Made by a program: the position numbers and the translations under genes. The notes below the pieces were generated by a model. The model was not told the origin of the DNA. It did no database searches and was given only the letters and a program-made list of their open reading frames with translations. Of a DNA stretch of 64,000 nt, positions 23,603-27,362 are shown piece by piece. Source of the stretch: Zhongshania marina (GTDB taxonomy: Bacteria; Pseudomonadota; Gammaproteobacteria; Pseudomonadales; Spongiibacteraceae); assembly GCF_002915595.1 (NCBI RefSeq), contig NZ_PQGG01000035.1, positions 62,001 to 126,000 of the forward strand, in the 5' to 3' direction. How positions within the stretch are numbered: position 1 is the first letter of the stretch; each line of letters begins with the position of its first letter.

Positions 23603-24139
23603 TTAGCAGTGCTCGGTCAGTTTGATTTCAAGATTGTTTTCCGTATCAGAAACCCACACTGAGTCCTCATCTATAGTGCATTGCAAACGCATGGTGCGTT
23701 GCGCGATGTCTTTCAGAGCTGTGGAGTCTTCAATACTGACTTCAAAAATTTTTACATTGCTGTGTTGGCTTATTTTATTGCGGTTTTCCTCCCACCACAT
23801 TTGTGCAGTGCGGCCGCCATAAATAAAAATAATGACTTGCTTGGCGATAGCGCGGGCTTTGCGCACACGTTTTTCGCTGGGTAGACCCATTTCAATCCAA
23901 AGGTCGATTTCGCCGGTGAGGGACTTTTGCCATAGATCGGGCTCCTCATCGGTGCTAAGGCCCTTGGTGAATTCCAAGTGTTCGTCAGCATATAAAGCGA
24001 AGGCGAGGATGCGCAACATCATCCGCTCGTCGGTCTCGGATGGGTGGCGAGCAACGGTAAATTGATGGCGCTGATAGTAATGGCGACGCAGGTCGCTAAC
24101 GTCGAGGGTGGTTTTAAATAGCGTTGCGTTCAAAGCCAT
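23603..24139 (-). CDS. yaeQ: YaeQ family protein
   Basis: A 178-residue YaeQ protein with the PD-(D/E)xK nuclease-like fold known for the family. Visible conserved segments are H-P-S-E-T-D-E-R-M-M-L-R, G-E-I-D-L-W-I-E-M-G-L-P and K-A-R-A-I-A-K-Q-V. No nuclease activity has been established for YaeQ; E. coli YaeQ was once proposed to act in transcription antitermination. The gene lies 56 bases downstream of the YqaA gene on the same strand and could be read from that operon. Confidence 0.9.
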   Translation of the reverse strand: MALNATLFKTTLDVSDLRRHYYQRHQFTVARHPSETDERMMLRILAFALYADEHLEFTKGLSTDEEPDLWQKSLTGEIDLWIEMGLPSEKRVRKARAIAKQVIIFIYGGRTAQMWWEENRNKISQHSNVKIFEVSIEDSTALKDIAQRTMRLQCTIDEDSVWVSDTENNLEIKLTEHC

Positions 24140-24195: not shown

Positions 24196-24621
24196 TTACA
24201 GCGCATTTACACCGCCAATCACAAGGGCGTAACGCAGCCCTTTACCGATTCCAACCAAGATAAAAAATGGTGTGGCTGGTATACGCATAATACCGCCAAC
24301 CACGGTGAGGGCATCTCCGCCGATAGGCATCCACGACATGAGCAGTGTCCATTTTCCGTAGCGCTTAAACCAGTTCTGGGCGCGGAGTAGGTCAGACTTG
24401 CGCGCGGGGAACCAGCGGCGGTCTGAATATTGGCTGAGCTTCATGCCCATCCACCAATTTACCCCTGCGCCAAGGGTATTGCCGGCGGTGGCCGCGAGCC
24501 ACAGCCACTTAGTGTCGAGGCCGGCGTTGAGTTGGGCGATCAGTAAAATTTCTGAATAAAACGGCAGCAATGTGGCAGCGCCAAATGCGGTGACGAACAT
24601 GAGTAGGTATTGGCTAATCAC
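24196..24621 (-). CDS. YqaA-family inner-membrane protein (DedA/SNARE-associated-like)
   Basis: A 141-residue membrane protein with A-A-T-L-L-P-F-Y-S-E near the N-terminus, G-N-T-L-G-A-G-V-N-W-W-M-G, W-F-K-R-Y-G-K-W-T-L-L-x-S-W-M-P and G-K-G-L-R-Y, all features of YqaA, a short relative of DedA lipid-scramblase-like proteins. It starts at GTG 24621, overlapping the TGA of the upstream amidotransferase gene (GTGA). An internal ATG at 24600 is less likely. Last of the four tightly coupled genes 27362-24196. Confidence 0.88.
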   Translation of the reverse strand: MISQYLLMFVTAFGAATLLPFYSEILLIAQLNAGLDTKWLWLAATAGNTLGAGVNWWMGMKLSQYSDRRWFPARKSDLLRAQNWFKRYGKWTLLMSWMPIGGDALTVVGGIMRIPATPFFILVGIGKGLRYALVIGGVNAL

Positions 24622-25283
24622 TGCATCGCACTCGCAACAAGGTGTTTAAAAATATGCAGTTGGCGGGCCTGAAAGGGTAGGTATTCCGGGTGCCATTGTA
24701 CGCCGATGCGAAAGCGATGCTTGGGGGTTTCTACTGCTTGAATAATATTGTCAGCGTCCCGTCCTGCTATGTGCAGGCCCTCGCCCAGTTTATGAATGGC
24801 TTGATGATGCAGGCTATTGATATGGCAGTGTTCGCTTCCCAATATTTTGTATAGCGCGCTGTGCGGGTCTACCGTCAAAGTTTTGCGGGGTATGAGCATA
24901 CGTTTATTTGAAGTTAGACGGCGGTGCTCGCGTAAATCAGTGTGCAGCGTACCGCCGAGTACAACATTTAGTAATTGCGCGCCTCGGCATATTCCCAAAA
25001 TAGGTAGGTCTTTAGCCAGGCTGTGCTCTAGCGCCATCATTTCAAAGCGGTCGCGTTCGCGATTAATCGGCGCCGTTTCTGGGGCATCCGGTAAATATAA
25101 GCGTTGGTCAATATCATCGCCACCGCTGATGATAATACCGTCGAGTTGATCTGGAATAACGCAGCGCTGTGGCGTAAGGCGATGGGCAACTGCACCGCAG
25201 CGCCACAGGGCCCAGCGTATAAACCACCACGCCAGTGGCAATTTGGTATCGTCGCCGGTCACGCCAATTAAGGGTTTGTTCAC
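24618..25283 (-). CDS. Class I glutamine amidotransferase-like peptidase (C26 / PuuD-like)
   Basis: A 221-residue C26-family hydrolase of the type that cleaves gamma-glutamyl amides. Cys99 in G-I-C-R-G-A-Q, His198 and Glu200 in W-H-P-E form the triad, and the oxyanion strand reads I-I-S-G-G-D-D-I. I start at GTG 25283: GGAG lies 6 bases upstream and GTGA overlaps the stop of the amidoligase gene. A longer frame to 25379 would overlap that gene by 100 bases. Pairing of such a GATase with a GS-like amidoligase is a known conserved linkage; the enzyme could remove or recycle the product the ligase makes. Substrate unknown. Confidence 0.85.
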   Translation of the reverse strand: MNKPLIGVTGDDTKLPLAWWFIRWALWRCGAVAHRLTPQRCVIPDQLDGIIISGGDDIDQRLYLPDAPETAPINRERDRFEMMALEHSLAKDLPILGICRGAQLLNVVLGGTLHTDLREHRRLTSNKRMLIPRKTLTVDPHSALYKILGSEHCHINSLHHQAIHKLGEGLHIAGRDADNIIQAVETPKHRFRIGVQWHPEYLPFQARQLHIFKHLVASAMQ

Positions 25284-26296
25284 AGCAACTCCGGAATTAA
25301 CCAGCGGCTTACGCTGTTTGCCCAGTTGGTAAATAAATTGGCGGTGGGATTGTCGAGGTATTTGCGATAACCGCGGCACACCATGTCGAGGCGGCGTTTA
25401 TCCATTGCCAAATTATCGACTTGAAGCCAGTCGCGGTAAGGGTGGATTAGCCCCCACTGCGGGTCGTCGATAAGACTGTTCGGAAGACGGTAATGCAGCG
25501 TTGGCCGCGCTTTGACGCGGTCGTCACTTACGGTGCGGCGCAGGCGCTCGTCGTCGATGTGTGAGAATAGCGGCAGCATGTCTAATGCGCGGTTGCGGGT
25601 TGGGTTGTACTCTAAATAATCGTCGATGAGTTGATTGATATCTGGGGCGTAATCCTCCCTCAATAATAGGCGAACATAGTCTTTTCCAAAGGGATCGACG
25701 TAGGAGGTGAGGCGACGGCTAAAGTCCACATCGCAGCGCATTTTTAACCAGTCGTATAGGCATAAAAATGCCCGTAGATAGTCGCGTATGGTGTCGGCAC
25801 TACAGTCGGGCATTTCGGGATTTAATTGCAATCCAAACGCATTTTTTGCCGAGGCGTGGGTGCCCTGGGCGTCCGAGTCGCGGAGTTTTTGAAACAGGGT
25901 TTCCAGTTGCCACAACTCATCCATTGCGATTGGTGGCGCCACGACTTCAAAGGGCACCAGTTGCTTGGCGATGGCACCAACAATGGCTTCGGCCAGTTCT
26001 TCTAAGTCGTTATTGTCTGCGGATTCGCGACGCTCGCGGCTGATGCGCTTGATGTAGGAGAAGTCGAGCTCAACGCCAAATTTACCTAAGGAGGTATCAA
26101 CGACATTGATTTCATAGTCAGATACCGCGTCGGCTTTGCCGCCGTAAAGCGAAATAATGGTGTCGACGATATCGCTAATTTCCATGCCGGTGAATTCAAT
26201 TTCTACCCCCAGCCGCCGCACCTTGCTTTCAGCAGTTTTACTGTGCTGCGGCAGTGGCCACAGCGACTTGCGATATTGATCTAGGGAATTATTCAT
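25280..26296 (-). CDS. GS-like amidoligase (Amidoligase_2)
   Basis: Predicted ATP-dependent amide-bond ligase related to glutamine synthetase and gamma-glutamylcysteine ligase. The 338-residue protein has G-V-E-I-E-F (30-35, metal-binding Glu pair), F-G-V-E-L-D-F (73-79), F-E-V-V-A-P-P (116-122) and N-A-F-G-L-Q-L-N-P-E (152-161), the marks of the PF12224 family. ATG 26296 has GGAGA 7 bases upstream and overlaps the end of the upstream permease gene by 8 bases; an ATG at 26320 lacks such a site. The stop overlaps the amidotransferase start. The products of this family are unknown; small peptides or modified metabolites have been proposed. Confidence 0.87.
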   Translation of the reverse strand: MNNSLDQYRKSLWPLPQHSKTAESKVRRLGVEIEFTGMEISDIVDTIISLYGGKADAVSDYEINVVDTSLGKFGVELDFSYIKRISRERRESADNNDLEELAEAIVGAIAKQLVPFEVVAPPIAMDELWQLETLFQKLRDSDAQGTHASAKNAFGLQLNPEMPDCSADTIRDYLRAFLCLYDWLKMRCDVDFSRRLTSYVDPFGKDYVRLLLREDYAPDINQLIDDYLEYNPTRNRALDMLPLFSHIDDERLRRTVSDDRVKARPTLHYRLPNSLIDDPQWGLIHPYRDWLQVDNLAMDKRRLDMVCRGYRKYLDNPTANLFTNWANSVSRWLIPELL

Positions 26297-27362
26297 TGCT
26301 ATCTCCAATGATATGAGCAAGGGGTAATAGGCGCTCGGTGTGTTGGCAAACTACCTGAAATAAGGTGAGTAGGGGCACGGCAAGTAAAACTCCCGGTGCA
26401 CCCCATAACCAGCCCCAGAAAAATATCCATAAAAACACCACGATGGGGTTTAGGCTAAATCGTAAGCCGTGAACAAAGGGGTCGATAAATTGACCGGTGA
26501 AGGCGGTAAATAGTCCGTATGAAAGCGGCGCGGCAATAATGGCGGCGGGGTTGCTATAGCTTACCGCACTGACGATGGTAAATAATATGAGGGTGATGCT
26601 CACGCCGAGATAGGGAATATAGCGCAGCAATGCCGCGACTGCGCCCCACAGCGCGGGGTCGGGAAAGTCCGCGAGCCAAAGCCCAAGGGCGGTTACCGCC
26701 CCCACTGAGATATTGACCGCTGTAATAGTTAATAGATAGCGGGACATCTGCGTTTGTGCCAGTTCGGCAATGCGCGTCACTACGGCTTTATCGCGCTGGG
26801 TGGGCAGGCTATGGATGAAACGCTTCATGAGCGCCTCGCCGGAGGTTAATAAGAAAAACAGCAGAATAATGCTAAGGGTGCCGTAAACACCGAAGTTTTT
26901 GGCAATTTCTCCTAGCTCTGAACGCCAGCCCGCGTCAGCAATAACGACCTGAGTTAATTGCGGGTCACTGGGGCTGGCACTGAATTCTTTTGCGAGGGAG
27001 TCGATACTGCGGCTGGCGGCGTCGACATTATCATTATCGCTATTGACGTTGCCGAGTTGGTCGCGCAGTACCTCCACGGCCTCAGGCACCCGTTGCAACC
27101 ACTCACTGGCGGGGGAGGCCAATGCATAGACGCTCCCGGTAATAGCGCTTAAGCCTAGGGTCATAATAATGATTGCAGCGATGCTGCGGGGCAGGCCTAT
27201 TTTTTGTAAGCGGCTGACGGCGGGCGCGAGTAACAGCGCGAAGATAAGCGCCAGTGTAATCGGAAGCATCACGTCTCGGGCGACTTGCAGGGTGTAAAGC
27301 ACGGCAAGTATGGCAATAATTTTAATGGCCCAGTCGGACTTGTTAGGTAGGTTTGTATCCAT
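26289..27362 (-). CDS. AI-2E / PerM-family permease
   Basis: A 357-residue integral membrane protein with about seven to eight hydrophobic segments and the family's long cytosolic/periplasmic insert (about 85-155). Conserved stretches include A-L-I-F-A-L-L-L-A-P, L-R-Y-I-P-Y-L-G-V, and near the C-terminus G-x-P-G-V-L-L-A-V-P-L. Members export autoinducer-2 or act as Na+/H+ antiporters or general permeases, so substrate cannot be inferred. It heads the operon with the amidoligase, GATase and YqaA genes (8- and 4-base overlaps), suggesting it moves a metabolite of that pathway. Confidence 0.88.
   Translation of the reverse strand: MDTNLPNKSDWAIKIIAILAVLYTLQVARDVMLPITLALIFALLLAPAVSRLQKIGLPRSIAAIIIMTLGLSAITGSVYALASPASEWLQRVPEAVEVLRDQLGNVNSDNDNVDAASRSIDSLAKEFSASPSDPQLTQVVIADAGWRSELGEIAKNFGVYGTLSIILLFFLLTSGEALMKRFIHSLPTQRDKAVVTRIAELAQTQMSRYLLTITAVNISVGAVTALGLWLADFPDPALWGAVAALLRYIPYLGVSITLILFTIVSAVSYSNPAAIIAAPLSYGLFTAFTGQFIDPFVHGLRFSLNPIVVFLWIFFWGWLWGAPGVLLAVPLLTLFQVVCQHTERLLPLAHIIGDSNE

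Follow-up and report, generated by a model that had tools for sequence, protein, structure and literature searches.

What bond is made and broken by an operon that places an Amidoligase_2 (PF12224) ligase and a C26 class-I GATase-like hydrolase between two membrane proteins is the question raised by a locus of Zhongshania marina (Gammaproteobacteria, Spongiibacteraceae). The operon lies in a 64,000-nucleotide stretch of contig NZ_PQGG01000035.1 (positions 62,001 to 126,000, assembly GCF_002915595.1), here called the window, and its four minus-strand genes (Table 1) overlap successively by 8 bases (permease/amidoligase), 4 bases (amidoligase/hydrolase) and 4 bases (hydrolase/YqaA), the latter two junctions reading GTGA. 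The coordinates and Pfam searches agree with the layout and the four families named in a first-pass annotation made from the sequence by itself, and all four proteins exceed the curated Pfam cut-offs. On balance, the operon probably encodes a ligase and a hydrolase of gamma-glutamyl amides that work as a module tied to the inner membrane. The links described below restrict the bond to a gamma-glutamyl one, implicate the membrane, and identify partner genes as well as genomes, Dinoroseobacter shibae among the latter.

The amidoligase matches PF12224 at 206.5 bits (cut-off 22), its residues 26-291 spanning positions 2-244 of the 245 in the profile, and is 93-95% identical to four Zhongshania records. 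E32 and E34 (GVEIEF), E117, N159 and E161 are invariant in 26/26 aligned amidoligases. An AlphaFold2 model made from 26 aligned relatives (pLDDT 88.3) was compared with glutamine synthetases using VIA-align, giving Z up to 12.8 with 217 residues aligned and a root-mean-square deviation of 3.5, and the first rows of a Foldseek search with the model are YbdK, a plant glutamate-cysteine ligase and glutamine synthetase (best E ~0.01, TM score ~0.3). The modelled protein has a glutamine synthetase-like (GS-like) carboxylate-amine ligase fold, while a sequence search against solved structures returned no significant match.

PF12224 is matched once in the source genome and in none of 14 control genomes. 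It is near-universal in the family (19/21 genomes) and scattered outside it, being present in 64/244 genomes of the order, 17/274 sampled from the class and 22/349 sampled from the phylum. The 244 order genomes are assumed to be the same set for the ligase, hydrolase, yqaA and gamma-glutamylcyclotransferase (GGACT) searches, and none of the co-occurrence counts, nor the Fisher p given below, takes account of phylogenetic kinship. With the hydrolase called at a profile E of 1e-40, 60 order genomes hold both ligase and hydrolase, four the ligase only, one the hydrolase only and 179 neither; the two genes almost always co-occur in the order, bearing out the pairing noted at first pass. The neighbourhoods of 95 ligase loci were also clustered (omitting eight duplicate Spongiibacteraceae loci and 16/18 family loci, with some residual redundancy, since L011 and L147, alike in length and neighbours, seem to come from a single contig; here L labels a locus and G a genome), and 87 of them have the hydrolase in the stretch. 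Two loci, L049 and L065, are without a match to the family profile and were left out of this clustering. The one hydrolase-only genome (G418, L214:3409-4418) carries a hydrolase minus its first ~50 residues, followed by yqaA, with the ligase unmatched in the stretch, and looks like a decaying copy of the operon. An oleate-hydratase-like gene (named by eye) lies upstream of this remnant. Plasmid-borne ligases were also observed: on pDSHI02 of D. shibae (L271, DSHI_RS19780/19775) there is a ligase-hydrolase pair whose ligase is 31% identical to that of the window, and on a plasmid of Azospirillum argentinense (L269, NZ_CP007795.1) a ligase with no adjacent hydrolase has genes for an undecaprenyl-diphosphate phosphatase and another DedA protein 2-3 kb downstream.

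By profile and catalytic triad the hydrolase is classed as a PuuD-like C26 enzyme, scoring 162.7 bits against Peptidase_C26 and 56 bits against GATase. Among solved chains those of Lin1909 and PuuD, together with a 'probable glutamine amidotransferase', are nearest to it; a profile alignment with E. coli PuuD gives 30% identity across 174 columns, and against the PuuD equivalog, whose cut-off is 266, the protein reaches 72.6 bits. Cys99, His198 and Glu200, predicted earlier as the triad, are invariant in 25/25 aligned hydrolases. The same residues could serve a different chemistry, in which the C26 protein is a glutaminase feeding ammonia to the amidoligase, and a carboxylate is amidated at the membrane, as by MurT/GatD on lipid II. 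Such an amidating complex would suit the class-I GATase fold with its Cys-His-Glu triad, the weak matches of the hydrolase to the GATase domains of GMP and CTP synthase, and the overlapping genes, which suggest a complex. However, the C26 score (163 bits) far exceeds that for GATase (56 bits), no open reading frame (ORF) in the neighbourhoods matches both ligase and hydrolase profiles, as a fusion would, and related loci have genes for GGACT or gamma-glutamyltranspeptidase (GGT), neither of them a usual ammonia donor, next to the ligase. Amidation is accordingly regarded as unlikely, if deserving of some weight.

Clues to the nature of the bond come in part from loci in which the hydrolase is missing. 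Eight of the 95 clustered loci are without it: L031 is a fragment at a contig end, L064 is a second ligase copy, L149, L170 and L177 have ligase and yqaA (with the permease as well in L149), and the rest are L164-L166. In the last three, a GGACT-domain gene sits directly upstream of the ligase on the same strand (PF06094 search; L166 by Pfam); in L144 one lies divergently beside the ligase, and L026 has one ~3 kb away. Against PF06094 (cut-off 22.8) these proteins score 46.3 (L166), 47.2 (L026) and 50.9 bits (L144), and a script found the FVYGTL and LDxYE motifs together in 16/18 GGACT copies, FGTL being recognised by eye in the other two. In L135 (Pfam) and L169 (profile) the start of the ligase gene shares 4 bases with a GGT gene; by eye, each of the two GGT proteins has a signal-like stretch at its beginning. 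On a tree of 79/128 ligase loci (drawn from sets of 119 and nine), with 28/76 inner branches starred, L144, L164-L166, L135 and L169 fall together in a nine-ligase clade that is starred (GGACT changes on this tree were taken over 62 rows, with G292 and G275 scored absent, unsearched). A hydrolase search of the rest of the genome makes replacement clear in G487, which has no match above 27 bits, and likely in G362, which, like G338 and G299, has only distant ones (116-136 bits). Together, the neighbouring genes point to gamma-glutamyl chemistry, and the GGACT and GGT contexts beside the ligase favour the initial guess of a glutamyl amide.

A profile of five GGACT proteins extends this association beyond adjacent genes. 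It finds 18/244 order genomes, 18/18 of which have the ligase (Fisher p 5e-12, uncorrected for phylogeny); 17 do so at E <1e-40, in six families, and the match in G354 is weak and partial (52 bits). Only four of the anchored-GGACT genes are beside the ligase, so linkage alone is not the cause of the co-occurrence. In the family labelled f4 GGACT is found in 7/7 ligase genomes, and two f4 genomes not among the ligase genomes, G272 and G460, are not among the 18. In all 18 GGACT copies examined (from 17 of these genomes and from L026) a hydrophobic anchor lies at the N-terminus, preceded by more basic residues than follow it (L164 and L258 by eye), and this N-in charge pattern places the enzyme domain, by prediction, in the periplasm. 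Ligase-linked yqaA is found in none of the 17 strong anchored-GGACT genomes and is present in G354. Neighbours shared by the 13 unlinked GGACT genes were sought, and proved to be mainly within f4 and uninformative.

The second recurrent link is to the membrane. The YqaA protein matches VTT_dom at 48.3 bits (cut-off 33.9) and is 40% identical to E. coli YqaA. Counting yqaA as linked when it is no more than 2.5 kb from the ligase, the link is found in 28/64 ligase genomes of the order, covering 11/20 families, and yqaA is in the stretch in 34/95 clustered loci; on the 79-row ligase tree the linked state of yqaA requires 15 or more changes. The two family members without the ligase, G287 and G274, are also missing yqaA and the permease ortholog (best permease identity 23-24%), and G274 is also without hydrolase at E 1e-40. 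The proposed link of YqaA to the amidoligase thus withstood a neighbourhood survey outside the source genome. Its converse was looked at in 38 ligase-free yqaA stretches of the order, a part of the yqaA genes found (17 from ligase genomes, one from G418 and 20 from ligase-less genomes): the hydrolase occurs in one, that of G418, and there are no matches to gshA, GGT, GGACT or the permease. In E. coli K-12 (L181, record 2814883-2816940) yqaA and gshA are co-oriented, with yqaA upstream at a distance of 72 bases; a general rule of YqaA beside a glutamyl ligase is ruled out by the absence of gshA from all 38 stretches. The commonest other neighbour in these, an MCP-domain cluster (9/38, several families), is read as a common gene class, and a RecQ gene (4/38, all in family f205) as family synteny. 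Further genes that recur near the ligase (GGDEF, ABC, mechanosensitive channel, lyase and others), a sample of which was annotated, were treated as genome context.

The permease link is of narrower reach. The protein scores 151.7 bits against PF01594 (cut-off 34.3) and its gene adjoins the ligase in 18/19 ligase genomes of the family; beyond the family it appears in two further loci only, L055 and L149, at an identity of 29-30% that makes the outside link weak. It is present in 5/95 clustered loci and needs three changes on the ligase tree. In G276, a 70% complete assembly, only a 43-residue piece of it is left (L087:5695-5823) next to a ligase that is intact, by which the permease seems dispensable. 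The link is near-universal in the family and weak outside, and of the linkage first proposed the family part therefore stands, while its wider form is largely refuted by the neighbourhood survey.

In the favoured explanation, a gamma-glutamyl-amide module at the inner membrane, the PF12224 protein would act as a GS-fold ATP-dependent ligase that couples an amine to the gamma-carboxyl group of glutamate or a glutamyl compound, and the PuuD-like C26 cysteine hydrolase would, from its family, cut that bond in the cytoplasm. YqaA, together with the permease in this family, may transport across the inner membrane either the product or its amine, as their linkage suggests. Some other lineages would remove the glutamyl group on the outer face of that membrane, by means of a secreted GGT or a GGACT anchored in the membrane.

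Two further explanations share parts of this scheme. In the first, the operon serves amine catabolism of the Puu type, with glutamylation, oxidation by unlinked enzymes and release by the C26 protein, the permease and YqaA importing the amine. The PuuD-like hydrolase is in keeping with this, as are PuuC-like aldehyde dehydrogenases a few kb from the ligase in three loci (L149, L060 and L052; 214-266 bits to E. coli PuuC), and an alphaproteobacterial plasmid (L267, CP049031.1) on which the ligase-hydrolase pair is preceded by genes for an aldehyde dehydrogenase and an amino-acid ABC binding protein. However, these three PuuC-like genes and one weak PuuB-like oxidase match (26 bits, L167) are all that 121 ligase loci contain, which makes the route less likely, and a periplasm-facing GGACT fits poorly with purely cytoplasmic catabolism; it is considered improbable. 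In the second, the ligase makes a glutamyl peptide or modifies either a protein or a ribosomal peptide, a role that published work predicts for PF12224 clusters of phages. The phage-like locus L049, with PF12224, a class-II GATase and GGACT, is of this sort, and passages of two prophage papers cite cell-wall change by peptide linkage or change of cell-wall receptors (PMC11253131, PMC11318856). A recurrent small gene was nevertheless not seen in the neighbourhoods, a weak objection as their listing omitted ORFs <60 aa, and this explanation is held to be very improbable. Of the ligase, hydrolase and YqaA, the hydrolase only has a PHROGs match, the ligase is without a match in an annotated phage collection, and none of the four operon proteins was matched by PADLOC.

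Several observations weigh against a gamma-glutamyl module at the membrane. Comparisons of the ligase profile with single YbdK, PuuA and GshA sequences gave nothing significant, so glutamate specificity rests on the neighbours and the fold. Seven of the 18 anchored-GGACT genomes belong to one family, f4, and 13 of the 17 strong GGACT genes are away from the ligase, with uninformative neighbours of their own. Two of the six order genomes lacking an adjacent hydrolase, G385 and G441, carry a hydrolase of family grade at another place in the genome (264 and 245 bits), and replacement does not apply to G441. YqaA is not obligatory, being encoded elsewhere in 24/64 ligase genomes and found in none at this threshold in 12/64, and yqaA is also present in 71/180 order genomes without the ligase.

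A bolder proposal is that COG1238 DedA proteins carry or flip a ligase-made gamma-glutamylated amine, perhaps an aminolipid, which would be deglutamylated inside by the C26 enzyme and outside by anchored GGACT or GGT. This is speculative, and in its full form has perhaps a slim chance of being right. According to passages of a 2023 survey (PMC10127716), the COG1238 subfamily of DedA proteins has no assigned function, undecaprenyl phosphate flipping is thought unlikely for it, and members of it are described as essential for several species of Pseudomonas; those passages do not mention a link to an amidoligase. A YqaA protein has been tied to indium resistance, as stated in part of another source (PMC8679861). 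In the literature searched, amidoligase is not named together with DedA or with YqaA, four papers name it together with cyclotransferase, and no product is reported for a bacterial PF12224 ligase. If the proposal is true, a transmembrane gamma-glutamyl cycle would be the first pathway role for both the COG1238 DedA subfamily and a periplasmic cyclotransferase subfamily; the links make the product of the PF12224 ligase and the role of COG1238 DedA testable together.

Upstream of the operon are the PLDc_N gene and dapD, and downstream is yaeQ, a stable neighbour within Spongiibacteraceae only; neither yaeQ nor the PLDc_N gene is counted as part of the system. An MgtC-family gene directly precedes the permease in L008:4490-4942 and L091:3349-3831, and is absent from that place in the window. 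A promoter and terminator scan gave fewer sites than shuffled sequence and carries no information on co-transcription.

Table 1. Genes of the operon and its immediate neighbours, in window coordinates
Feature	Position	Strand	Start, length or placement	Basis
AI-2E/PerM-type permease, PF01594	26289..27362	-	ATG, 357 aa	Pfam AI-2E_transport
PF12224 amidoligase, GS-like fold	25280..26296	-	ATG, 338 aa	Pfam Amidoligase_2
PF07722 C26 class-I GATase-like hydrolase	24618..25283	-	GTG start, 221 aa	Pfam Peptidase_C26
YqaA / COG1238-type DedA membrane protein	24196..24621	-	GTG start, 141 aa	Pfam VTT_dom
yaeQ	23603..24139	-	56 bases downstream of yqaA	Pfam + family neighbourhoods
PLDc_N small membrane protein, 61 aa	27604..27789	-	between dapD and permease	

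Known systems resemble the operon at several levels. With the COG1238 DedA subfamily the likeness is one of sequence, the operon protein and E. coli YqaA sharing the 40% identity given above. Prophage amidoligases near a cyclotransferase are reported in passages of PMC11253131 and PMC11318856, and L049 is a locus of that kind: at L049:4365-7190, PF12224, class-II GATase (PF13522) and GGACT (PF06094) genes are clustered and adjoin a large ORF that looks structural by eye. These phage clusters share with the operon and its relatives a PF12224 ligase accompanied by a gamma-glutamyl-cleaving enzyme. They differ in that the GGACT of L049 has no evident anchor (by eye), the GATase is class-II and not class-I, and no YqaA stands beside it in the listed stretch.

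The gamma-glutamyl-putrescine pathway of PuuA and PuuD likewise combines a GS-fold ligase with a C26 gamma-glutamyl hydrolase, but the ligase here is not detectably PuuA by sequence, the operon is without an oxidase or dehydrogenase, and membrane partners are present. Operons of a ligase and a hydrolase are known from pathways where a glutamyl group temporarily masks an amine; in EgtA/EgtC, BtrJ/BtrG and IpuC/IpuF it is added by the ligase and removed by the hydrolase, the families of both differing from those of the operon. By analogy, the present pair may act like PuuA/PuuD or EgtA/EgtC, with the glutamyl group masking or carrying an amine and later being removed. The closest counterpart is the pairing of Amidoligase_2 with a class-I GATase-like peptidase that was reportedly described by Iyer and colleagues in 2009, in which the two families are adjacent and co-oriented, as here. 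In contrast to that pair as reported, the present system has YqaA as a recurrent third gene, the Spongiibacteraceae permease, and anchored GGACT or GGT as alternatives. By this comparison the ligase-GATase pair was already known, and the links to YqaA, to the permease, to anchored GGACT and to GGT may be what is added here.

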